This document shows, in pieces, positions 6,589 through 35,119 of a stretch of 64,000 bases of DNA. The translations under genes and the position numbers were made by a program. The notes beneath the pieces were generated by a model, which saw only the letters and a list, made by a program, of their open reading frames with translations, was not told where the DNA came from and ran no database searches. Position 1 is the stretch's first letter. Each line of letters opens with the position of its first letter. The DNA is taken from contig NZ_CP108488.1 in assembly GCF_035987325.1 (NCBI RefSeq), forward strand, positions 2,728,001 to 2,792,000, read 5' to 3'. This DNA is from Streptomyces sp. NBC_01244. Lineage in GTDB: Bacteria > Actinomycetota > Actinomycetes > Streptomycetales > Streptomycetaceae.

Positions 6589-7998
6589 CTAGGTCCTGGC
6601 CGGGGTCCGGGTCAGGACGTCCGCCAGGATCCCGGGCGGGGTCTTGGCAGGGGCCTTCGGGTTCTTGGCGGGGGCCTTGGAGGTCTTGGGCGTCTTGCCC
6701 GGGGCCTTCGGAGCCTTCGCCGGGGCCGGGGCCTTCATGGCCGGGGCTCCGACGTCCAGCCAGCTCCGGTCGATGTTGAGCGTCACGTCCCCGTACGTGG
6801 CGTCGTGGTCCCCGCGGAACTGGTGGGCGCGGCGGCCCCCCGTCCACTGGGTCGTACCGGCGGGCAGCCCCAGGTCGGCGTCGGCGACGGAGGCCGCGCC
6901 GTTCCAGCGGGCCACCCACAGCACGTCGGGCATGGCCTCCGGGGCCTGGGCGTAGTGGGCGCTCAGCGCCTTGGCCCCGGAGCTCGCCGCGACGTAGGCG
7001 GCGGCGCCGTAGCCCAGTTCGTGCAGGCGCACCGTCCAGGCCGTGAGGTAGGCGACGACCGGGGCGTCCCAGGTGGCCCGGTCCGTGTAGTTCTCCAGGT
7101 CGTTGTAGAGGACGGTGCCCTCGGCCAGGCCCAGTGCCTCGGCCGCGTGGGCCGCGCCCTCGGCCTCGGCCCGGCCCTGCTCGTTGGCCTCCGAGGGGTC
7201 GGTGGAGAGCCCCGTGGAGGAGCTGTTCCAGGGCTGGGGGCCGACCCAGATCGGCATGAGGTGCCAGCCCGCCTCGGCCTGCCTGCTCACCCATCCGGCG
7301 GTGAGCTGCGGCTGGGCGCAGGCCCGGGCGCGGCCGCCGATGTAGACGCCGACGGCGCCGAAGGGCGAGTCGGCCCGCCACGCGTTCATGGTGCGCTGGG
7401 TGGGGGCCGTGCAGGCGTCGAAGCCCTCGCCGGTGAAGGGCACCTGGACGGTGGTGCGGGGACCCCCGCCGACGACCCCGGCCGGATCGACGGGGACCGG
7501 GCCGGGGGCCGCCGGGGGCGTGAGGGCGCGGGCCCGGGTGAGGACCGCGCGGACGGCCTCGGGGGTGGAAGCGTAGGAGACGGTGGCCATCACCCCGGCG
7601 CGGCGCAGGGCGTAGCGGATCTCGTTGCTGTCGCCCCGGACCTTGGCCAGGGGGTCGCCCTCGTCACCCCCGACGGTGGGGATGTCGGCGCGCGGCGGGG
7701 CCCCGTCGAGCGGCTCCAGGTGCAGGGTGTCGGAGCGGTGGGCGGCGGCGCGGGCGGCTCCGCATTCGCGTTGGCCGCCCGCGTGCCCGAGGTAGAGGGT
7801 GGGCAGGTCCAGGCGCAGGCAGGCGTCGGGGTTCCGGTCGAGGTCGACGACCCGCCAGTCGGCGGGCACGGTGAGGCGCAGCCCGCGGTAGTCGACGGTG
7901 CGGCCGTCGGCGGTGGGACCCTCGACGGCCCCGAGGGGGACGGGAGCGAGCAGCGCGGCGCCCAGCAGGCAGCTCAACATCATGTGGGTGGGGAGCAT
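6589..7998 (-). CDS. Secreted DUF1906 (Rv2525c-like glycoside-hydrolase-like) protein
   Basis: 469 aa from ATG 7998. It has a hydrophobic N-terminus (MMLSCLLGAALLAP) with a likely signal-peptidase site after PLGA. A variable domain of about 150 residues is followed by a DUF1906 TIM-barrel-like domain from about GEGFDACTAP to NIDRSWLDVG (roughly residues 190-415), with acidic motifs YNDLENYTD and HQFRGDHDATYG where GH25-like relatives have active-site carboxylates. The C-terminus is a Lys/Ala/Pro repeat (KAPAKNPKAPAKTP), perhaps a cell-wall tether. The family is thought to act on or bind cell-wall glycans, but no activity is proven. Start is uncertain; no good Shine-Dalgarno is visible. Confidence 0.75.
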   Translation of the reverse strand: MLPTHMMLSCLLGAALLAPVPLGAVEGPTADGRTVDYRGLRLTVPADWRVVDLDRNPDACLRLDLPTLYLGHAGGQRECGAARAAAHRSDTLHLEPLDGAPPRADIPTVGGDEGDPLAKVRGDSNEIRYALRRAGVMATVSYASTPEAVRAVLTRARALTPPAAPGPVPVDPAGVVGGGPRTTVQVPFTGEGFDACTAPTQRTMNAWRADSPFGAVGVYIGGRARACAQPQLTAGWVSRQAEAGWHLMPIWVGPQPWNSSSTGLSTDPSEANEQGRAEAEGAAHAAEALGLAEGTVLYNDLENYTDRATWDAPVVAYLTAWTVRLHELGYGAAAYVAASSGAKALSAHYAQAPEAMPDVLWVARWNGAASVADADLGLPAGTTQWTGGRRAHQFRGDHDATYGDVTLNIDRSWLDVGAPAMKAPAPAKAPKAPGKTPKTSKAPAKNPKAPAKTPPGILADVLTRTPART

Positions 7999-26029: not shown

Positions 26030-27016
26030 ATGGAGCTGATTGCATGCAATCCGCAGGTCCTCCTCGAACGGGCCCGGGGCGCTCTTCTCGGACTCGCGGT
26101 GGGTGACGCGCTGGGCGCCCCCGCGGAGAACATGAAGCCCTCGGAGATCCGGGCGAAGTGGGGCCGGATCGAGGGCTTCGTCTCGGACGACCCGGCGGGC
26201 ACGGACGATACGGAGTACGCGATCTTCTCGGGCCTGCTGCTGGCCCGCCACGGGTCGGCGCTGACGGTCGCCCACGTCGAACGCGCGTGGCACCACTGGA
26301 TCGCGGATCTGGACGAAGGCCCCTTCCGCGGCGCGGGCTTCTCGGAGCGCGGCACCCTGGAGAACCTCCGGCGTGGCCTGGCGGCCCCCATCTCCGCCCA
26401 GCACCGGCACGCCTGGTCGGACGGTCTGGCCATGCGGGCGGCCCCCTTCGGCGTCTTCGCGGCGGGCCGCCCGGCCGAGGCCGCCCGGCTCGTCGCCATC
26501 GACGGTTGCGTCAGCCACGACGGCGAGGGCATCTACGGCGGCCAGGCCGTCGCGGCCGGGGTCGCGGCGGCGATGGCCGGCGGGTCCGCGGCCTCCGTCA
26601 TCTCGGCGGCCCTCTCCGTCATCCCCTCCGACTCCTGGACGGCCCGCTCCCTGCGCCGAGCCGTGACGGCCGCCCCGCGCGGCGAGCGGGCGGTCCGCTC
26701 GGCGGTGGTCATCGGCGGCTACCCCTGGACGGACCTGGCCCCCGAGGCGGTCGGCCTCGCCTTCGGCGCGTTCGCCGCGTGCGGTGGCGACTTCGCCTCC
26801 TCCGTCCTCATGGCGGTCAACATGGGCCGCGACGCGGACACCACGGCGGCCGTTGCGGGCGCACTCGCCGGCGCGATGGCCGGCGCCCCCGCCATCCCGG
26901 CCGCCTGGTCCTCGGCGATCGGCCCGGTCCGCGGCAGCTGCCTCCCCTCGATGCGCGGCTACCACGTCCTGGACATCGCGGACCTCCTCACCCCGGAAAC
27001 CGAGACCCCCCGATGA
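26030..27016 (+). CDS. ADP-ribosylglycohydrolase family protein, copy 1
   Basis: 328 aa, all-helical DraG/ARH fold of near-canonical length. All three metal-site motifs are present: GDALGAP at residues 25-31, the TDDTEYA motif at 58-64 (two aspartates plus Thr), and NMGRDADTTAAVAGALAGA at about 263-281, which supplies the distal DxDT ligands. The family hydrolyses N- or O-glycosidic bonds of ADP-ribose and sometimes other ribosides using two Mg2+ ions. ATG 26030 is preceded by GGAGAGG. It is the first gene of a seven-gene operon joined by 4-bp overlaps. It is the most canonical copy along with copy 3; the substrate is not established. Confidence 0.9.
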   Translation: MELIACNPQVLLERARGALLGLAVGDALGAPAENMKPSEIRAKWGRIEGFVSDDPAGTDDTEYAIFSGLLLARHGSALTVAHVERAWHHWIADLDEGPFRGAGFSERGTLENLRRGLAAPISAQHRHAWSDGLAMRAAPFGVFAAGRPAEAARLVAIDGCVSHDGEGIYGGQAVAAGVAAAMAGGSAASVISAALSVIPSDSWTARSLRRAVTAAPRGERAVRSAVVIGGYPWTDLAPEAVGLAFGAFAACGGDFASSVLMAVNMGRDADTTAAVAGALAGAMAGAPAIPAAWSSAIGPVRGSCLPSMRGYHVLDIADLLTPETETPR

Positions 27017-28761
27017 CCCTGACCCCGACCTCCCCGCCCACCTCCCCCTCCACCTCCCCCGCCACCACCACGAACCCACCCCTCCCACCGACCGCCCCAC
27101 CCGAGGAGGCCACCCCCCAGGACGGCGCCCGGGCCGCGCGACCCCCGGAAGGCGACACCCTGACCCACGAAGCGGGCGAGCCCGTCGCCCCTGCGGCCTG
27201 CGGGCCCGAACCGGCGCGGGGCCGGGACGTGCCGGTGCCCGAGTTCCTTCGCGCCGCGACCGGGGTACGGGGCCATGCCGCCCCCGGGCCCGCCGAGGTG
27301 TCGGCCGCGCCGGTCCGGGGGCCCGGGAGCCCGCCCCCGGTGTCGGGAAGGGGCGGGGGCGAAGAAAGCCCGCCCGCCCCGGAGCCGACCGCCGCGGGGC
27401 ACGCCGCCCCGCCGCGCACGCAGGCCCGTACCGCCCCCACGGAGGCCACCGCAGGCCCGCTCACCGTCCCCCCGGCGGCCACCGCCGCTCCGCCGGGGCC
27501 GGCCCCGGCGGGACCCGCCGCTCCGCGGGGAGCGCAGCCCCGTACGGCCACGGCCACGGCCACCGCCGAGCCGCGCGCCGAGGCGACCCCCGGGCCCGCC
27601 CCCGCGGGGCCCCGCCGGATCGAGGGGCTGCTGCTCGGGCTCGCCGCGGGCGACGCCGCCGGGTGGCCCGCGGCACGCCACCGGGCCAGCCGCATGCCCG
27701 AGTGGACCCGTCGCCTCACCCGCGAGCTCGACACCTTCGCCGAGCAGAACGCCACCACCACGCTCCCCGTCCCGATCGCCCTCAACCAGCCCCCGGAACC
27801 GCTCCGACTCGGCCCCTCCGACGACGCCGAGTGGGCCGCCTTCGCCGCCGAGTCCGTCCTCACCGCCGCCGGAGTGCTGCTCAGCGACCTCTCCCGGTCC
27901 CGCCGCATGCGCGCCGCCATCGATCTCGCCTGGAACGCCCTGGCCAGCGAGGTGGCCGCGGCAGCGGAACGCGCGCCCGAGGTCGAGTCCGCCGTCCTTC
28001 CCCTGCGCGCCCGGATCTCCGTCCGCGCGGGCCTCGGCAACCTCGCCGCCGGCCTGCGCCCGCCCGCCACCGGCCACGACAACCCGCACTACTTCGACGA
28101 CGCCGCCTGCATCCGTGCCTGCGTCCTGGCCGTCGTCCATCCCGGGGACCCCGAAGCCGCCGCGGACCTCGCCGAGTTCGACGCCCGCTACACCCAGGAC
28201 GGCGACGGGGTCCACGGCGCCCGCGCCATGGCCGCCGCCATCGCCACCGCCCTCGCCTCCGCCGGGACCTGCACGGCCGCGGACACCGACGCCGCCGTCG
28301 ACGCGGCCCTCGCGCAGCTCCCGGAGTCCACCGAGATCGGCCGCAACGCCCGGCACGCGGTGAAACTCGCCCGCGCCGAGACGACCGGCGGGGCCTTCGC
28401 CATCGTCCCGCTCCTGGAGCACCAGATCGTCGACCACGTCTACAGCTACGGCATCGCCGCCGCGGAAACCGTTCCCGTGGCCCTGGCCCTCGCCACCGCC
28501 GCCCGCGGCCGGGTCGGCGAGGCGGTCCCGGCCGCCGCCTGCCTGTCACGCGTCGCGGACTCCGCCCCCGCCCTCGCCGGGGCGCTGACCGGCGCCCTCG
28601 GCGGCGGCGACTCGCTCCCCGCCGCCTGGCGCGAAGCGTGCCGCACCCTTTCCGGCTGCGCCCTCCCCCGCCTCGCGGGCACCGACCTCGTCGAACTGGC
28701 CGCGCTGCTCACCCGTACGGAACTCACCTCACCCAAGCCCCAAGGAAAGCCCCGGACATGA
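27013..28761 (+). CDS. ADP-ribosylglycohydrolase family protein, copy 2, degenerate metal site and disordered N-terminus
   Basis: 582 aa. The first roughly 195 residues are Pro/Ala/Thr-rich and predicted disordered. The ARH-like domain begins at about RRIEGLLLGLAAGDAAGWP (residues 200-217). The second motif is kept as PSDDAEWA. The distal motif is altered: where copy 1 has GRDADTTA this copy has SRVADSAPALAGALTGAL, so the first Asp is replaced by Val and Thr by Ser/Ala. Catalysis may be lost or changed. ATG 27013 overlaps the stop of copy 1 (ATGA). Part of the N-terminal region at about 27311-27370 resembles Streptomyces extragenic GC-rich palindromes read as protein. Confidence 0.8.
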   Translation: MTLTPTSPPTSPSTSPATTTNPPLPPTAPPEEATPQDGARAARPPEGDTLTHEAGEPVAPAACGPEPARGRDVPVPEFLRAATGVRGHAAPGPAEVSAAPVRGPGSPPPVSGRGGGEESPPAPEPTAAGHAAPPRTQARTAPTEATAGPLTVPPAATAAPPGPAPAGPAAPRGAQPRTATATATAEPRAEATPGPAPAGPRRIEGLLLGLAAGDAAGWPAARHRASRMPEWTRRLTRELDTFAEQNATTTLPVPIALNQPPEPLRLGPSDDAEWAAFAAESVLTAAGVLLSDLSRSRRMRAAIDLAWNALASEVAAAAERAPEVESAVLPLRARISVRAGLGNLAAGLRPPATGHDNPHYFDDAACIRACVLAVVHPGDPEAAADLAEFDARYTQDGDGVHGARAMAAAIATALASAGTCTAADTDAAVDAALAQLPESTEIGRNARHAVKLARAETTGGAFAIVPLLEHQIVDHVYSYGIAAAETVPVALALATAARGRVGEAVPAAACLSRVADSAPALAGALTGALGGGDSLPAAWREACRTLSGCALPRLAGTDLVELAALLTRTELTSPKPQGKPRT

Positions 28762-29960
28762 CGACCGACATGACGACCCTGACCCCCGTGGACCCCGCTC
28801 CCGGCACCCACACTTCCTCCCCCACCCTGGACGACCGGATCGTCGGCGCCCTCGTCGGCGCGGCCGTCGGCGACGCGCTGGGCGGCCCGGTGGAGGGCTG
28901 GACCCCGGAACAGATCGTGGAGCGGCACGGCGGCCGGGTGCGCGGCATCGTCGGCCCGTGGCACGAGGACTGGCGTACGGCGCGCCCGATCGCCCCGTAC
29001 CACAAGGGCGACGGCCACGTCACGGACGACACCCTGATGACGCACGCGCTGGTACGGGTCTACGAGGCCGTACGGGACCACCTGGACGCGTACGCGATCG
29101 CCGAGCACCTGGTGCCGGACCTGATGACCACCCCCCGCTGGATCCCGGAGCTGGAGGCGGACGCCCTCCCCCTCCAGCGGATCTTCCTCGCCGAGAAATG
29201 GATCGTGACCCGGCTGCACTACGCGCACGCGGACCCGCGGGAGGCGGGCAACGGCAACATCGTGAACTGCGGCGCGGCGATGTACATGGCGCCGGTCGGC
29301 CTCGTCAACGCGGGCAATCCGGCCGGGGCGTACGCGGAGGCACTGGACGTCACCGGCGCGCACCAGTCCTCGTACGGGCGGGAGGCGGCGGGCGTGTTCG
29401 CGGCCGCGGTGGCCGCGGCCTGCGTGCCGGGGGCGACGGCCGCCTCCGTGGTGGACACGGCCCTCTCCCTGGCCAAGGACGGCACCCGCGCGGCCATCGC
29501 GGCGGTCTGCGAAGTCGCCGCCGGGCACCGGGACTTCGAGTCGGCGCTGGCCCCCCTCCGGGCGGCGGTCGCCCCGTACGACTCGGTCGGCCCGGACTAC
29601 CGCACGCCGTCCCTGGGCGCACGGCGCCCCTCCCGCCTGCACTCCATCGAGGAACTCCCGGTCGCGCTCGGCATGCTGCTCGTCGGCGACGGCTGCTACG
29701 AGACCTCCGTGCTCGGCGCGGTCAACTACGGCCGGGACTGCGACTCCATCGCGACCATGGCCGGCGCGATCGCGGGCGCCCTGTCGGGCGTTCCTGCCGT
29801 CCCCCCCGCCTGGGCGGACCGGGTCGCGGAGGCCAGCCGCCTGGACCTGCGCGCCCCGGCCGTTGCGCTGGCCGCGGTGACCCGGGAGGTCTTCGCACGC
29901 GACCGTTCCCGCCGCCGGACCCACGAAGCCGCCTTCGCGGCGCTGACGGCCCCCCGATGA
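28758..29960 (+). CDS. ADP-ribosylglycohydrolase family protein, copy 3
   Basis: 400 aa with intact motifs: GDALGGPVEG at residues 38-47, GHVTDDTLMTHALV at about 92-105, and NYGRDCDSIATMAGAIAGAL at about 322-341. Compared with copy 1 it has a longer insert between the second and third motifs (WIPELEADALPLQRIFLAEK, NIVNCGAAMYMAPVGLVNAG). That belongs to a separate subfamily often found in carbohydrate or nucleoside operons, so the bond cleaved may not be ADP-ribosyl-protein. It overlaps both neighbours by 4 bp (ATGA at each end). No signal peptide; cytoplasmic. Confidence 0.88.
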   Translation: MTTDMTTLTPVDPAPGTHTSSPTLDDRIVGALVGAAVGDALGGPVEGWTPEQIVERHGGRVRGIVGPWHEDWRTARPIAPYHKGDGHVTDDTLMTHALVRVYEAVRDHLDAYAIAEHLVPDLMTTPRWIPELEADALPLQRIFLAEKWIVTRLHYAHADPREAGNGNIVNCGAAMYMAPVGLVNAGNPAGAYAEALDVTGAHQSSYGREAAGVFAAAVAAACVPGATAASVVDTALSLAKDGTRAAIAAVCEVAAGHRDFESALAPLRAAVAPYDSVGPDYRTPSLGARRPSRLHSIEELPVALGMLLVGDGCYETSVLGAVNYGRDCDSIATMAGAIAGALSGVPAVPPAWADRVAEASRLDLRAPAVALAAVTREVFARDRSRRRTHEAAFAALTAPR

Positions 29961-32098
29961 CCCCCACCCGGCCGGCGCCCCCGCCCGCTCCCCCGGCCCC
30001 GGACGCGGCCACCCTGGGCGCCACGGGAGCAGGGACCCTCGACTCGGCCCCACCCACGCCCACCCCCGGCCCGGCCCGGCCCGAGACTTCCCCCACCCCA
30101 CCCCACCCCGAAACCAGGGTCACCCCCCTGAACCCCGACCACCCGGGCCTGCCGGCCCCGGACGGCGAACCGGTCCCCACCCCCGGACCGAGCCTGCCCA
30201 CCCGGGACGCCGAACCGGCCCCGGCCGGCGGAGCCGGGCCCGTCCGGCTGACCTGGGTCCAGCCCGAGGACCTGGTCGGCCACGAGTTCCGGCAGGCAGC
30301 CGAGGACGGCCGCGGGGAAGCCGCGGAGCCGCTGCTGCGGGTCTGGCTCGCGGCGGGCGGCCACCTCGCCCCGGCCCGGGCGGGCGCCTCCCCCACACCG
30401 GCCCCACCGGCGCTCCGCGCCCTGGCCACGGACCTCCTGACGGCCCTCGCGGCCCTCCCCACACCCGCCGAACCGACCCCTCGGCCCGACCCCGCGGGTC
30501 ACCGGGCCGCCCGCGCCCCGGGGTCCAGGGGCCTGCCCCTGGCTCCGGGAAGGGGCGGGGTGGGGAAACTCTCCACCCCCACCCCGCCCCACCACCCAGA
30601 AACCGAGGCCGAGGCCGAGGCCGAGGCCGATGTCGTGCCCGAGGCCGAGTCCGATGTCGTGCCCGAGGCCGGAGCCAGGACCGGAGCCGTGCCCGGGGCC
30701 GAAGCCGGAGCCGTGCCCGTGCCCGAGGCCGGGGCCGGGGCCGGGGCCGGGGCCGGGGCCGGGGCCGGGGCCGGGGCCGGGGCCGGGCCTGGGCCCGAGG
30801 CCGGAGCAGGAGCCGGAACCGGAGCCGAAGCCGGAGCGGGGGCCGGGGCCGAGGCCGAGGCCGGAGCAGGAGCGGGGGCCGGGGCCGGAACCGGAGCAGG
30901 GGCCGGAGACGAGGCCGGAGACGAGGCCGGGGCCGGAGCCGAGGCCGGGACGGAGGTCCGGGTCGGAGCCGGGGCCGAGGCCCGGGCCCGCTTCGCAAGG
31001 GGCCCGGCGGATGCCGCCTCAGGCGGCCCCGCCCTGCGCCGCAGGCTGGAGGCGGCCTGGCTCGGCCGTGCCGTCGGCTGCGTGCTCGGGAAGCCCGTGG
31101 AGAAGCTGCCCCTGCACGGGATCCGGGCCCTGGCCCGGGCCGCGGGGAACTGGCCGCTCGACGACTGGTTCACCGAGCGCGGCGTACCGCCGGAGGTACT
31201 CGCCGCGCACCCCTGGAACCGCCGCTCCGCGCCCACCTCCCTCGCCGAGAACATCGACGGCACCCCCGAGGACGACGACCTCAACTACCCCCTCCTCGGC
31301 CTGCTCCTGCTCCAGCGCCACGGCAAGGGCTTCACCACCGCCGACGTCGGCCGGCTCTGGCTCGACGAGCTCCCGGCCGGCCGTACGTTCACGGCCGAGC
31401 GGGTCGCGTACCGCAACCTCCTCCAGGGCCTGGAGCCCCCCGCCACCGCCACCCACCACAACCCCTTCCGCGAATGGATCGGCGCCCTGATCCGCGCCGA
31501 CGTCCACGGCTGGACCAACCCGGGCGCCCCGGCCGCCGCCGCGGCCCAGGCGTACCGGGACGCCGCCCTCACCCACACCGGCAACGGCGCCCACGCCGCC
31601 ACCTTCGTGGCCGCCGCCACCGCCACCGCGGCCACCGGCCGGGCCGACGTGCACACCGCGCTCCGGGCCGGCCTGGCCGTCGTACCGCCCCGTTCCCGCC
31701 TCGCCGAGGCCGTCCGCTTCGGGATCCGTACGGCCTCGGACGCGCGGAACACCGGTACCGGATTCGATACCGTCGTCGACCTGCTCCACGCCCGCTACGG
31801 CCACTACCACTGGGTCCACTCCGTCCCCAACACCGCAGTGATCGCCGCCGCCCTCACCCACGCCGACGGGGACTTCACCCACTCCGTCTGCCGCGCCGTC
31901 TCCGGCGGCTGGGACACCGACTCCAACGGCGCCACCGCGGGCGCCCTCGCCGGACTGATCACCGGCTCCCCCGAAGCCATCCCGCACCGCTGGACCGCCC
32001 CGCTGAAGAACCGCCTCGCCACCACCGTCCCCGGCTTCGACGGCATCGGCTTCGACACCCTCGCCCACCTCACCGCACAGGAGGCAGCCCGCTCATGA
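29957..32098 (+). CDS. ADP-ribosylglycohydrolase family protein, copy 4, with low-complexity linker
   Basis: 713 aa in four parts. A Pro-rich start (1-94) precedes a small conserved-looking module (RLTWVQPEDLVGHEFRQAAE, about 97-116, through ALRALATDLLTALAAL). A long Gly/Ala/Glu linker (about 180-345), encoded partly by tandem GGGGCC units, follows, and then the catalytic-like domain from about 355. The first motif is GCVLGKPVEK, with Cys where copies 1 and 3 have Asp. The second is GTPEDDDLNYPLLG, and the distal one SGGWDTDSNGATAGALAGL is intact. This GCxLGKPxE variant group is distinct from ARH1/DraG. It overlaps copy 3 and the kinase gene by 4 bp. Exact start is uncertain because no Shine-Dalgarno is obvious and reinitiation is assumed. 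Confidence 0.78.
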   Translation: MTPTRPAPPPAPPAPDAATLGATGAGTLDSAPPTPTPGPARPETSPTPPHPETRVTPLNPDHPGLPAPDGEPVPTPGPSLPTRDAEPAPAGGAGPVRLTWVQPEDLVGHEFRQAAEDGRGEAAEPLLRVWLAAGGHLAPARAGASPTPAPPALRALATDLLTALAALPTPAEPTPRPDPAGHRAARAPGSRGLPLAPGRGGVGKLSTPTPPHHPETEAEAEAEADVVPEAESDVVPEAGARTGAVPGAEAGAVPVPEAGAGAGAGAGAGAGAGAGAGPGPEAGAGAGTGAEAGAGAGAEAEAGAGAGAGAGTGAGAGDEAGDEAGAGAEAGTEVRVGAGAEARARFARGPADAASGGPALRRRLEAAWLGRAVGCVLGKPVEKLPLHGIRALARAAGNWPLDDWFTERGVPPEVLAAHPWNRRSAPTSLAENIDGTPEDDDLNYPLLGLLLLQRHGKGFTTADVGRLWLDELPAGRTFTAERVAYRNLLQGLEPPATATHHNPFREWIGALIRADVHGWTNPGAPAAAAAQAYRDAALTHTGNGAHAATFVAAATATAATGRADVHTALRAGLAVVPPRSRLAEAVRFGIRTASDARNTGTGFDTVVDLLHARYGHYHWVHSVPNTAVIAAALTHADGDFTHSVCRAVSGGWDTDSNGATAGALAGLITGSPEAIPHRWTAPLKNRLATTVPGFDGIGFDTLAHLTAQEAARS
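30731..30784 (+). repeat. Nine tandem GGGGCC hexanucleotides inside a coding region
   Basis: Nine uninterrupted copies of GGGGCC in the linker of ADP-ribosylglycohydrolase copy 4, read in frame as Gly-Ala dipeptides. They sit in a longer zone (about 30600-30990) of degenerate GCC/GAG/GGG codons. A gain or loss of units would leave the frame intact and only alter linker length. It is also a spot where assembly may be unreliable. Confidence 0.85.
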
Positions 32099-33000
32099 CG
32101 GCCATCGCCGTGCTCGGCAGTACCAACATGGACCTCGTCGCCTACGTGGCCAAGGCCCCCCGTCTCGGGGAGACCGTCACCGGCCGCTCCTTCCGCACCG
32201 TTCCCGGCGGAAAGGGTGCCAACCAGGCCGTCGCCGCCGCCCGTTCGGGCGCGGAGGTGGTGATGATCGGTGCGGTCGGGGCCGACGAGTTCGGCGTACG
32301 GCTGCGCTCGGCGCTCGCCGGCGCCGGGGTCGAGACGGCGGCCCTGCGCACCGTCGAGGGCGCCAGCGGCACCGCGCACATCACCGTGGACGACGAGGGC
32401 GGCAACAGCATCATCGTCATCCCCGGCGCCAACGCCCTCGTCACCTCCCTTGAACCGGGCGACGCCGCCCGCATCGGCGCCGCCGACTCCCTGCTCCTCC
32501 AGCTCGAACTGCCCCTGGAGGCCGTGCTCGCCGGCGCCCTCGCCGCCCGCGCCCACGGGGTCCGGACCATCCTCACCCCGGCCCCCGCCCAGCCGCTGCC
32601 GGCCGAACTCCTCGCCGCGACCGACCTGTTGGTGCCCAACGAGCACGAGGCCGCCGCGCTCACCGGGCTCACCGACGTCCACCTGGCCGCGGCGGCCCTG
32701 CTCCAGGACGTGCCGGAGGTGGTCGTCACCCTCGGCGCGGCCGGGGTGCTGTACGCCGCCCGCGGCCGCGAGCCGCTGGCCGTGCCCGCGCCGCACGTAC
32801 GGGCCGTGGACACCACCGCCGCCGGAGACACCTTCGTCGGCGCGCTCGCCGTGGCCCTGAGCGAGGGCCGGCCGATGCCCGTAGCCCTGAGCTGGGCCTC
32901 GGCGGCAGCCGCCCTGTCCGTGCAGCGCCCCGGCGCCCAGGACTCGATGCCGACCCGCTCCCAGACCGACACCTTCGCCCGCTCCGGAGCCGCCTCGTGA
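32095..33000 (+). CDS. PfkB-family sugar kinase, ribokinase-like
   Basis: 301 aa. The N-terminal PfkB signature is GGKGANQAVAAARSGAEV (residues 38-55). The substrate-side motif VLGSTNMDLVAYV and the C-terminal signature DTTAAGDTFVGALAVAL (about 241-257) carry the catalytic aspartate and anion hole, and NEHEAAALTG matches ribokinases. It probably phosphorylates ribose or a related pentose/nucleoside released by the upstream glycohydrolases, giving ribose 5-phosphate (inference from order). It overlaps copy 4 (ATGA) and the CoA-transferase (GTGA). Ribokinase proper is the best call; adenosine kinase-like specificity cannot be excluded. Confidence 0.87.
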   Translation: MTAIAVLGSTNMDLVAYVAKAPRLGETVTGRSFRTVPGGKGANQAVAAARSGAEVVMIGAVGADEFGVRLRSALAGAGVETAALRTVEGASGTAHITVDDEGGNSIIVIPGANALVTSLEPGDAARIGAADSLLLQLELPLEAVLAGALAARAHGVRTILTPAPAQPLPAELLAATDLLVPNEHEAAALTGLTDVHLAAAALLQDVPEVVVTLGAAGVLYAARGREPLAVPAPHVRAVDTTAAGDTFVGALAVALSEGRPMPVALSWASAAAALSVQRPGAQDSMPTRSQTDTFARSGAAS

Positions 33001-34241
33001 CCTACACCGGCCAGGACACCACCGGGACCGGGACCGGGACCGGCACCACCGCCGCCGCCCCGCCCCTGCAAGGGCTCCGCGTCCTCGACCTCGCCACCCT
33101 CTTCGCAGGTCCCCTCGCCGCCACCCTCCTCGGCGACTTCGGCGCCGAGGTCGTCAAGGTCGAGCACCCGACCCGCCCCGACCCCTCCCGCGGCCACGGC
33201 CCCGCCAAGGACGGCATCGGCCTCTGGTGGAAGCTGCTCGGCCGCAACAAGCGGACGATGACCCTCGATCTGTCCACGCCCGGCGGCCGGGAGACCCTGC
33301 TGCGCCTCGTCGCCACCGCCGACGTGGTGATCGAGAACTTCCGCCCCGGAACCCTGGAGCGCTGGGGTCTGGGCTGGCCCGAGCTGTCCGCCGCGAACCC
33401 GCGGCTGATCCTGACCCGCGTGACGGCCTTCGGCCAGGAGGGCCCGTACGCCCACCGCCCCGGCTTCGGCACCCTCGCGGAGGCGATGAGCGGCTTCGCG
33501 GCGATCACCGGGGAGCCGGAGGGTCCGCCGACCCTGCCGCCGTTCGGGCTCGCGGACTCGATCGCCGCGCTGACCACCGCGTACGCCGTGATGGCGGCGC
33601 TCGCCGGACGCGACCGCACCGGGCACGGGCAGGTGGTGGACCTGGCGATCATCGAGCCGATCCTGACCGTCCTCGGGCCGCACCCGCTCTGGTACGACCA
33701 GCTCGGCTACGTCCAGCCGCGCACCGGCAACCGTTCCACCAACAACGCGCCCCGCAATACGTACCGCAGCCTGGACGGCCGCTGGCTGGCGGTCTCCACC
33801 TCCGCCCAGTCCATCGCCGAGCGCGTGATGCGGCTCGTGGGCCGGCCCGAGCTGATCTCCGAGCCGTGGTTCGCGTCGGGTTCCGGTCGGGCCGGTCACG
33901 CGGACGTGCTCGACGAGGCGGTCGGCGGCTGGATCGCCCGTCACAAGGCGGACGAGGTGACGGCCGCCTTCGAGGAGGCCGAGGCCGCGGTCGCGCTGGT
34001 CTACGACGTACGGGACGTCATGGCCGATCCGCAGTACGCGGCCCTGGACACGATCACCGAGGTCGAGGACCCGGAGCTGGGCCCGATCCGCATGCAGAAC
34101 GTCCTGTTCCGACTGTCGGAGACCCCCGGCTCCATCCGCTGGGCGGGCCGCCCGCACGGCGCGGACACCGATGCCGTCCTCGCCGAGATCGGCCTCTCCC
34201 CGGCCGAGATCACCGCTCTCCGCACGGAGGGGGCCCTGTGA
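32997..34241 (+). CDS. CaiB/BaiF family (class III) CoA-transferase
   Basis: 414 aa, family-typical length. It shows the N-terminal RVLDLATLFAGPLAATLLGDFGAEVVKVE motif region (about 23-52; quoted here only as RVLDLATLFAGPL and FGAEVVKVE), RNKRTMTLDL (about 82), and VIENFRPGTLERWGL (about 110). The nucleophile aspartate is in PFGLADSIAALTTAY near residue 186. Class III enzymes exchange CoA between two carboxylic acids through a mixed-anhydride/thioester intermediate. It is coupled by GTGA overlaps to the kinase upstream and the CitE-like lyase downstream. The acid substrate cannot be read from sequence; the pair with CitE suggests a hydroxy-dicarboxylate such as malate or citramalate (inference). 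Confidence 0.9.
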   Translation: MTYTGQDTTGTGTGTGTTAAAPPLQGLRVLDLATLFAGPLAATLLGDFGAEVVKVEHPTRPDPSRGHGPAKDGIGLWWKLLGRNKRTMTLDLSTPGGRETLLRLVATADVVIENFRPGTLERWGLGWPELSAANPRLILTRVTAFGQEGPYAHRPGFGTLAEAMSGFAAITGEPEGPPTLPPFGLADSIAALTTAYAVMAALAGRDRTGHGQVVDLAIIEPILTVLGPHPLWYDQLGYVQPRTGNRSTNNAPRNTYRSLDGRWLAVSTSAQSIAERVMRLVGRPELISEPWFASGSGRAGHADVLDEAVGGWIARHKADEVTAAFEEAEAAVALVYDVRDVMADPQYAALDTITEVEDPELGPIRMQNVLFRLSETPGSIRWAGRPHGADTDAVLAEIGLSPAEITALRTEGAL

Positions 34242-35059
34242 TCCTGACCTGGCTCTACGTACCCGGCGACCGCCCGGAGGTGGTGTCCAAGGCCCTGCAG
34301 GCCGGGGCCGACGCCGTCATCGTGGACCTGGAGGACGCGGTGTCGGCCTCCCGCAAGGAGTACGCCCGCGGCGCCACCGCCGAACTCCTCGGCGACCGGC
34401 ACCCGGTACCGGTCCACGTCCGCGTCAACGCCCTCGACTCCCCCTGGGGCGGCGCCGACCTCAGCGCGCTGGCCGGGCTCGGCGGCCTCGCCGGGCTGCG
34501 CCTGCCCAAGATCTCCTCGCCGGCGCAGATCGTCGCCACCGCCGACCGCACCGCGGGGGTGGCCCTGTACGCCCTGCTGGAGTCGGCGATCGGCGTGGAA
34601 CGTGCCTACGAGATCGCCCGCGCGCACCCCGCCCTGCGCGGCCTGTCCCTGGGCGAGGCGGACCTGCGGGCGGACCTGGGCGTCACCTCGGAGTCCGGCC
34701 TGGACTGGCCGCGCTCCCGGGTGGTGGTCGCGGCCCGGGCGGCCGGGCTGGCGCCGCCGGCCCAGTCGGTGTTCCCCGACATCCGGAACCTGGAGGCGCT
34801 GGCGGCCTCCTGCGCCCGGGGCCGGGCCCTCGGCTTCCTGGGGCGCGCGGCGATCCACCCGCGCCAGCTCCCGGTGATCGAGCGGGCCTACCTGCCCGGC
34901 CCGGCGGAGGTCAGCGCCGCCGAGGAGATCGTGGCCGCGGCCCGCCGCACCCCGGGCGCGGTGGCCCTGCCCGACGGCCGCTTCGTCGACCCGGCGATGC
35001 TGGCGGGCGCGGAACGGGTCGTGGCCCTGTCCCGCCGGGACGCGCCGGTCCTCTCCTGA
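34238..35059 (+). CDS. CitE-like CoA-ester lyase (HpcH/HpaI aldolase family)
   Basis: 273 aa TIM-barrel lyase. Conserved elements are TWLYVPGDRPEVVSKAL at the N-terminus, DAVIVDLEDAV (about 24-34), arginine-containing VHVRVNALDS (about 65), LRLPKISSP (about 85), and the Mg2+ ligands ALLESAIGVERAYEIA and SLGEADLRADLGV (about 112 and 133). Relatives include citrate-lyase beta chain, malyl-CoA and citramalyl-CoA lyases/thioesterases. Paired with the CoA-transferase it would cleave (or make) a beta-hydroxyacyl-CoA. It starts with GTG overlapping the transferase stop, and is the last gene of the operon, ending at a 22-bp hairpin. Confidence 0.88.
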   Translation: MILTWLYVPGDRPEVVSKALQAGADAVIVDLEDAVSASRKEYARGATAELLGDRHPVPVHVRVNALDSPWGGADLSALAGLGGLAGLRLPKISSPAQIVATADRTAGVALYALLESAIGVERAYEIARAHPALRGLSLGEADLRADLGVTSESGLDWPRSRVVVAARAAGLAPPAQSVFPDIRNLEALAASCARGRALGFLGRAAIHPRQLPVIERAYLPGPAEVSAAEEIVAAARRTPGAVALPDGRFVDPAMLAGAERVVALSRRDAPVLS

Positions 35060-35070
35060 CCCGGCGCACG

Positions 35071-35119
35071 CGAAACGGGAGGGGCGCCGCGCGGTGTGCG
35101 CGGCGCCCCTCCCGTTTCG
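35071..35119. terminator. 22-bp perfect hairpin, bidirectional terminator
   Basis: Arms 35071-35092 and 35098-35119 are perfectly complementary (left arm CGAAACGGGAGGGGCGCC followed by GCGC), with a 5-nt loop GGTGT. It ends with TTTCG on the plus strand and the equivalent on the minus strand. It lies between the convergent CitE-like gene and lgt. Confidence 0.9.

Follow-up and report, generated by a model that had tools for sequence, protein, structure and literature searches.

A window of 64,000 nucleotides from Streptomyces sp. NBC_01244 (contig NZ_CP108488.1, positions 2,728,001 to 2,792,000 of the forward strand) contains seven consecutive plus-strand genes at 26030-35059, whose open reading frames were checked in the sequence and which encode, in this order, four proteins of the DraG/ARH family (ARH1, ARH2, ARH3 and ARH4), a ribokinase (RbsK), a CaiB-type class III coenzyme A (CoA) transferase and a CitE-like acyl-CoA lyase. 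The reading preferred here, with confidence a little above even, is that these genes are the intracellular half of an Actinomycete riboside (or ribosyl-ester) utilisation system, in which the ARH proteins would free ribose and an acid, and the CoA branch would split the acid. The window appears to hold the enzyme half only of such an import-and-breakdown system, without importer, regulator and operator, because in relatives these genes come after those for a LacI regulator and for an ATP-binding cassette (ABC) importer of sugars.

Relatives with an importer, a regulator and an operator

The loci compared by name were the best 80 of at least 551, ranked by similarity to a Jiangella ARH2, and the presence of each gene was scored by tblastn, which does not prove an intact gene. 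Among the Jiangella-type loci, LacI, two permeases and a binding protein of the SBP_bac_1 family accompany ARH1-4 in 10/10, and among the Streptosporangiales-type loci (including Nonomuraea) the cluster contains importer and LacI in 19/20. Of the 50 Streptomyces loci, seven that did not reach 20 kb were excluded from the counts (ARH1 was missing in three of these, and ARH4, CaiB and CitE in one each); of the 43 longer than 20 kb a single one, from S. gossypii, has importer and LacI, the full cluster lying there between gltB and lgt. At the locus L098 the cluster parts were confirmed by Pfam, the importer being of the CUT1 type with an SBP_bac_1 protein, and the nearest named model of its LacI protein is RbsR, at a score below the cut-off. 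The outline of riboside breakdown given by the first-pass annotation of this DNA is strengthened by this placement of the genes after LacI and the sugar importer in other Actinomycetes.

Sugar-utilisation clusters with a CUT1 importer under LacI control are a kind known in Actinobacteria. The relatives of the operon share with them the repressor, a palindromic operator, two permeases, an SBP_bac_1 protein and intracellular enzymes, but differ in having cutting enzymes of the DraG fold and an added CoA-transferase/lyase pair; the copy in the window differs further in lacking importer and regulator, neither being found among its seven genes.

The palindrome core AAACGTTT, usually in the context CCG[G/T]AAACGTTT[A/C]C, was found upstream of 43/48 distinct LacI genes (49/54 with duplicates), at a density of 65 sites in the 15,916 bp upstream of LacI versus 6 sites in the remaining 886,580 bp of these loci. 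In S. gossypii the site precedes the called start of LacI by ~45 bp. Three Streptomyces loci that have no local LacI (L075, L158 and L189) still contain intact AAACGTTT sites; in these an intact GAAACGTTTC site stands before ARH1, and control by a regulator encoded elsewhere is possible. The simplest reading, in which we infer the direction of change, is that import and control were lost in most Streptomyces.

The cluster also occurs in parts. LacI, importer, ARH1 and ARH2 form a first module on their own at L110-L112, and a second module, at L195, L196 and L198, combines LacI and importer with ARH3, ARH4, an FGE-domain protein, CaiB and CitE, with RbsK in L196 only; its enzyme part was found on a short contig at L197. 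One genome (G747) holds both modules, L112 and L198, ~6 kb apart, and there are other mixtures, such as L113, without ARH4 and RbsK, and L114, in which the order is different. By gene content, the window operon is the sum of both modules minus the FGE protein. This protein (L098:14030-16033 and relatives, including L195-L198) has an FGE (SUMF1/EgtB) domain at its C-terminus, whereas its conserved N-terminal half has no Pfam family and resembles a glycoside-hydrolase (GH) barrel by sequence and in a low-confidence structural model; the barrel matches are a lead only, because the mean predicted local distance difference test score (pLDDT) is 58.6. Its relatives (1995 matches among 7994 scored candidates) are named SUMF1/EgtB/PvdO, formylglycine-generating or hypothetical, many of them from Microbacterium and Arthrobacter. 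Versions of the cluster were also seen in small genomes, at L113 (G696, 1.3-Mb) and L195 (G629, 1.8-Mb), a hint that the substrate repays its cost in such genomes.

Layout and conservation of the seven genes

The first-pass annotation had described seven plus-strand genes joined by 4-bp overlaps, and all of them were recovered, the overlap being ATGA at four and GTGA at two of the six junctions (6/6). Its family assignments agree equally well with Pfam (PF03747 four times, PF00294, PF02515 and PF03328), the four ARH proteins scoring 111.5-202 bits where the PF03747 cut-off is 26.2 bits. Among Streptomycetaceae loci, counting only those where a simple gene caller found ARH1, ARH3 and CitE and using its start calls, an ATGA/GTGA overlap follows ARH1 in 71/73, ARH2 in 51/60, ARH4 in 69/72, RbsK in 50/55 and CaiB in 73/73, and ARH3 in only 33/73; such recurrence exceeds chance. 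Purifying selection was seen in all seven genes, with ratios of nonsynonymous to synonymous substitution rates (dN/dS) of 0.06-0.38 against two near relatives (catalytic domain only for ARH2 and ARH4), the values for the neighbors trpA, gltB and lgt being 0.19-0.33.

The same annotation had let its idea of one system stand or fall with co-conservation, and the genes do travel together. ARH1-4, CaiB and CitE are present in 43/43 of the Streptomyces loci above 20 kb, and RbsK in 32/43, being absent from the other 11; across the named loci tblastn found ARH2 in 80/80, the simple gene caller giving none in ten of them. When 121 genomes of the family were searched with CitE, 40 had a match at E<=1e-40, and the loci of all 30 genomes besides that of the window with at least 63% CitE identity were compared: ARH1-4, CaiB and CitE have matches in these except at L058, where the contig ends before ARH1, and at L069, which is taken up below together with a further exception, L153, and RbsK is missing in 8/30. 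The ARH4 gene of L071 was missed by tblastn but is present by gene call. In genus g204 (eight loci) and at L076 the operon is sited away from gltB/lgt, yet it is whole, except for RbsK in L076, where a similar kinase lies just upstream of the cluster. The ARH2 domain occurs in 62/394 genomes of the class, among them 29/40 of the window genus, and a search for ARH3 beyond the class Actinomycetes found it in 10/396 genomes of the phylum, all of the window genus. In the same-genus genomes without the operon that were inspected, all of it is missing at that place in 6/6 (gltB, VIT1 and lgt stand side by side in four, gltB and lgt without VIT1 in one, and other genes are found in one). By these comparisons, the seven genes behave as a real unit.

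Table 1. Features of the operon in the window and of the adjoining hairpin
Feature	Position	Strand	Description
ARH1	26030..27016	+	DraG/ARH-fold hydrolase, predicted active; PF03747 202 bits
ARH2	27013..28761	+	ARH-fold, predicted inactive ARH1 partner; PF03747 111.5 bits; domain from ~27595
ARH3	28758..29960	+	ARH-fold hydrolase, predicted active; PF03747 170 bits
ARH4	29957..32098	+	ARH-fold hydrolase, altered first metal motif; PF03747 158.7 bits
6-bp minisatellite CCGGGG, ~64 copies	30603..30988	+	within ARH4, between N-terminal block and catalytic domain
RbsK	32095..33000	+	ribokinase (PfkB); PF00294; TIGR02152 313.8 bits
CaiB-type class III CoA-transferase	32997..34241	+	GTG start; PF02515 406.9 bits
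CitE-like acyl-CoA lyase (HpcH/HpaI)	34238..35059	+	GTG start; PF03328
22-bp perfect hairpin	35071..35119	.	-57.5 kcal/mol, z -6.5; between convergent CitE and lgt

The 22-bp terminator that had been proposed at the end of the operon is half upheld: the perfect hairpin is there (Table 1), but it is graded terminator-like only, because it lies between convergent genes and no T-run follows it in the sequence. Upstream, on the opposite strand, are a VIT1-family gene (Pfam) and a gene that we take from its protein sequence to be gltB; those downstream are presumably lgt, a DsbA-like gene and trpA, named in the same way.

The four ARH proteins

ARH enzymes carry a two-metal ligand motif, E...[T/S]DDT...DxDT/S, and the active sites studied to date bind ribose hydroxyls via the two metals; in animal ARH1 and ARH3 the mutational loss of a single metal ligand abolishes activity (Rack et al., PMC6309922, in the parts of the text consulted). 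The motif was followed through the operon proteins in distinct rows, with duplicate genomes removed and the window copy included for ARH1. In the window ARH1 the ligands are E33, TDDT 58-61 and DADT 268-271, and [T/S]DDT and DxDT are retained in 120/120 rows (flap Glu in 113, with 7 gaps); in the window ARH3 they are E46, TDDT 89-92 and DCDS 327-330, the complete motif being retained in 119/119 rows. ARH4 has EDDD in place of [T/S]DDT in 115/118 rows, DTDS in 117/118 and the Glu in 114/118 (4 gaps). In ARH2 the first Asp of DxDT is found in 0/110 rows and the flap Glu in 2/110 (26 gaps), so that four active glycohydrolases, as first described, are not supported.

ARH2 is nevertheless retained. 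Its domain has a dN/dS of 0.12-0.18, in the range of purifying selection, it has invariant residues of its own, its gene adjoins that of ARH1 in 112/112 loci with both called, and its AlphaFold model has the ARH fold (pLDDT 89.6), the nearest solved folds being ARH3 with template modeling (TM) scores of ~0.5-0.6. The probable role of ARH2 is that of a catalytically inactive partner to ARH1, because one metal ligand is absent from all 110 distinct copies, yet the gene stays beside ARH1 and under purifying selection. The four glycohydrolases may thus be three, since ARH2 is without metal ligands needed for catalysis.

The N-terminal parts of ARH2 and ARH4 are both long and of low complexity, that of ARH2 being a Pro/Ala-rich stretch of ~200 amino acids. 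In ARH4 of the window, the minisatellite (Table 1) encodes an Ala/Gly/Glu-rich linker; a conserved N-terminal block of the TWVQPEDL type is present in 101/127 ARH4 calls, and in the five relatives compared the ARH4 start lies at this block or at most ~15 residues from it. The DraG equivalog model TIGR02662, with a cut-off of 337.05 bits, is not reached by ARH1 (77.9), ARH3 (60) or ARH4 (21.1) and gives no match to ARH2, and the ARH scores with the Tri1 equivalog NF041672 are likewise far under its cut-off.

The window genome has nine PF03747 genes, four of which are those of the operon. The idea that a single ARH was recently duplicated in tandem was rejected on the basis of a quick tree in which several branches are long: the clades of ARH3 and of ARH4 are old and separate, and ARH1 and ARH2 belong to one group of 20 rows that also includes two other ARH proteins of this genome (support of 91 in the Shimodaira-Hasegawa-like approximate likelihood-ratio test, SH-aLRT). 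A gene related to ARH4 (44-47% identity) stands beside NUDIX and Sir2 genes by Pfam at L044:8118-10545 and L045:9453-11900, and at L046:9156-10823 such a relative is followed by a small gene that resembles, by sequence, the L044/L045 neighbor; this set would suit the hydrolysis of sirtuin-made O-acyl-ADP-ribose.

The proposed pathway and its rivals

RbsK exceeds the equivalog cut-off of TIGR02152 (313.8 vs 299.65 bits) and falls under that of a second ribokinase model, NF008353 (275.1 of 341). The window genome has no second RbsK-like kinase at E<=1e-25; in genomes without the operon RbsK a 40-48% identical kinase was found elsewhere in 8/8 tested. Free ribose fits as the product, because RbsK passes a ribokinase cut-off and the genomes without it hold a similar kinase.

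For the acid there is a class-level guess, a beta-hydroxy dicarboxylate. CaiB and CitE are jointly present (62) or jointly absent in 80/80 named loci; both are found in 10/10 Jiangella-type and 3/20 Streptosporangiales-type loci, and in quick trees (38 CaiB and 35 CitE rows) the operon copies need 2 and 3 label changes, respectively, where shuffled means are ~12-13. The nearest NCBIfam models of CaiB are succinate-glutarate, formyl-CoA/oxalate and mesaconate transferases, the best reaching 226 of 750 bits; CitE is nearest to RipC, a citramalyl-CoA lyase (NF038242), at 148.9 bits against a cut-off of 375, and to the solved chains 8khl/9nzb/3qll. With every score under its cut-off, naming the acid from these families was dropped. 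CaiB-CitE pairs also occur outside the cluster (L078-L084 and L089), and do not identify the acid either; the CaiB of L078-L081, L083, L084 and L089 is 56-71% identical to that of the window and paired with CitE, and the pair at L078 is accompanied by MmgE/PrpD and cyclase families by Pfam, as it is, by the look of the sequence, at the other loci. They are probably part of a different pathway that handles acids of this class.

In its full form, the proposed system would have its enzymes, together with a sugar ABC importer of the CUT1 type, under the control of a LacI-type repressor. A riboside or ribosyl ester would be imported and cut by ARH1, in complex with a catalytically dead but co-selected ARH2 subunit, and by ARH3/ARH4, the DraG-type two-metal site hydrolysing the glycosidic bond to ribose. 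RbsK, or another ribokinase where it is absent, would convert the ribose to ribose 5-phosphate, while the co-product, for which a beta-hydroxy dicarboxylate of four to six carbons (citramalate, malate or hydroxymethylglutarate, for example) is the likeliest candidate, would be loaded with CoA by CaiB, and CitE would cleave the thioester to give an oxoacid and acetyl-CoA. Two separate modules, ARH1+ARH2 and ARH3+ARH4(+glycosidase-like protein)+CaiB+CitE, would have become joined, and most Streptomyces would later have lost importer, regulator and operator. Since the importer would have been lost, the substrate in the window strain would have to arise intracellularly or enter through another transporter.

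The core of the earlier proposal, a ribosylated compound from which ribose and a carboxylic acid are released, is borne out in part: the LacI/importer context in other Actinomycetes, the ribokinase score and the company of CaiB and CitE with the ARH3/ARH4 module speak for it, but the incidence of RbsK in Streptomyces (32/43, which makes it dispensable at the locus) and of CaiB/CitE in Streptosporangiales-type loci does not. Several further observations weigh against the preferred reading. The acid branch appears optional or replaceable, because so few Streptosporangiales-type loci have it, and it yields an acid class and no named acid, because CaiB and CitE lie far below family cut-offs. Moreover, we know of no natural riboside of a beta-hydroxy dicarboxylate. 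No kinase stands alongside the first module at L110-L112. The importer, with its SBP_bac_1 protein, belongs to the oligosaccharide type, and the nearest solved relative of this protein binds arabino-oligosaccharides (E 1.3e-16), a match of low similarity that does not single out ribose. A regulator common to all versions is disfavored, because the operator before LacI is absent in L110-L112, L195 and L196, i.e., in 5/6 loci with one module alone and its LacI. At L069 (G397, Streptomycetaceae) a deletion at ~6606-7398 leaves the 5' part of ARH3 fused to the 3' part of ARH4, with the neighbors kept, from which it may be that the second module can be lost separately, and L153 is without ARH4 by gene order. 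In the window strain itself, neither the operator AAACGTTT nor a remnant of it was found upstream of ARH1, and the genome has no close homologue of the binding protein (best-scoring match 27% identity); the operon may serve something else there, because both are missing.

Among the alternatives, glycoside utilisation with a sugar other than ribose, in which the bond that ARH3/ARH4 cut in an oligosaccharide would be that of a hexoside or of a different furanoside, with RbsK as an accessory, is unlikely: it would accommodate the CUT1-type importer with its arabino-oligosaccharide-like SBP_bac_1 protein, the GH-barrel-like FGE protein of the second module (itself a low-confidence model) and the lack of RbsK from 11/43 loci and from those with ARH1 and ARH2 only, and is opposed by the ribokinase score, by the similar kinase in the eight tested genomes without RbsK and by the ribose hydroxyls bound in the ARH sites studied (PMC6309922). 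Slightly less likely still is a role in the turnover of ADP-ribosylation, in which the ARH proteins would strip ADP-ribose off small molecules, nucleic acids or proteins, and the remaining enzymes would recycle by-products, e.g., the acids of O-acyl-ADP-ribose. PF03747 does include DraG and ARH3, the full metal motif is kept in ARH1 and ARH3, SCO2028-SCO2031 are listed as DraG/ARH homologues (PMC9411070, PMC5087735), and an ARH4 relative adjoins NUDIX and Sir2 genes in other Streptomyces. Against this, the genes travel with a dedicated sugar ABC importer, a LacI regulator and a ribokinase, the DraG and Tri1 equivalog scores are far below cut-off, none of the seven genes, to which the search was confined, is an ADP-ribose transferase by Pfam, and SCO2028 and SCO2030 had no detectable activity on uracil-alpha-ADP-ribose, the one substrate concerned, in the text seen of PMC13036486.

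A biosynthetic or self-resistance role, the enzymes maturing or detoxifying a ribosylated natural product, would explain why they stay under purifying selection in most Streptomyces loci without importer, regulator and operator; with the Streptomyces locus steady between gltB and lgt, no natural-product cluster there, and importer-linked versions in other families looking catabolic, it is very improbable. Scarcely credible, finally, are chance neighbors without joint function, which the absence of RbsK and of CaiB/CitE from some loci might suggest, given that order and overlaps are conserved across families and the operon is found whole at another site in genus g204. Chance co-location was rejected on account of the co-conservation, the overlaps and the absence of the entire operon in 6/6 genomes without it.

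Among known systems, the ARH1 and ARH3 of the operon share fold and two-metal motif with the DraG/ARH (ADP-ribosyl)hydrolases of PF03747, and the set differs from these by its scores below TIGR02662 and NF041672, its link to sugar import in relatives and the loss of ligands in ARH2. In the itaconate/citramalate route an itaconate CoA-transferase is followed by the citramalyl-CoA lyase RipC/Ccl. The order of a CoA-transferase and then a CitE-like lyase nearest to RipC is similar here, but the operon has no hydratase gene and its CaiB and CitE stay under the family cut-offs. Ribose-scavenging loci of Bacteroides are said to contain ARH-like genes too. To our knowledge, the nearest arrangement would be yegTUV of E. 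coli, which encodes a putative nucleoside symporter, a putative ADP-ribosylglycohydrolase and a putative sugar kinase, of unproven function and with a proposed link to glycogen/ADP-glucose; transporter, ARH-family protein and sugar kinase under a dedicated repressor are alike, whereas yegTUV has one ARH instead of four, a transporter of the major facilitator superfamily (MFS), a GntR regulator and no CoA branch (excerpts of PMC10819704). Among the matches listed in a search of open-licence papers, no description of the cluster was seen by titles and abstract openings; in the excerpts concerned, SCO2028 occurs in PMC5036795 only within a primer/cloning description, and neither this paper nor PMC2217521 (SAR11) bears on the cluster.

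Eight DraG/ARH hydrolases of S. coelicolor are named in the part seen of PMC9411070, four of them the set SCO2028-SCO2031, and SCO2028-SCO2030 or SCO2031 are uncharacterised homologues in the portions seen of this paper and of PMC5087735. From the S. violaceoruber gene order (L151) and the locus tags in the papers, we infer that SCO2028-SCO2031 are ARH1-4. A broader proposal, put forward tentatively and with less than even confidence, is that DraG-fold proteins were recruited as metabolic glycosidases in an undescribed Actinomycete catabolic pathway, an active/inactive ARH1-ARH2 pair and an ARH3-ARH4 pair with the GH-like/FGE protein dismantling an imported pentosylated hydroxy-dicarboxylate, or an oligosaccharide bearing one, and that half of the S. 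coelicolor DraG/ARH "ADP-ribosylation hydrolases" may be unrelated to ADP-ribosylation. If so, half of the Streptomyces DraG/ARH proteins counted as ADP-ribosylation hydrolases would be enzymes of sugar metabolism, and the tally of ADP-ribosylation in these bacteria would change, in keeping with the lack of detectable activity of two ARH proteins on the one ADP-ribosyl probe tried. It would also point to a selected pseudoenzyme within the ARH fold, and to a compound for which several Actinomycete families maintain dedicated import and breakdown genes.

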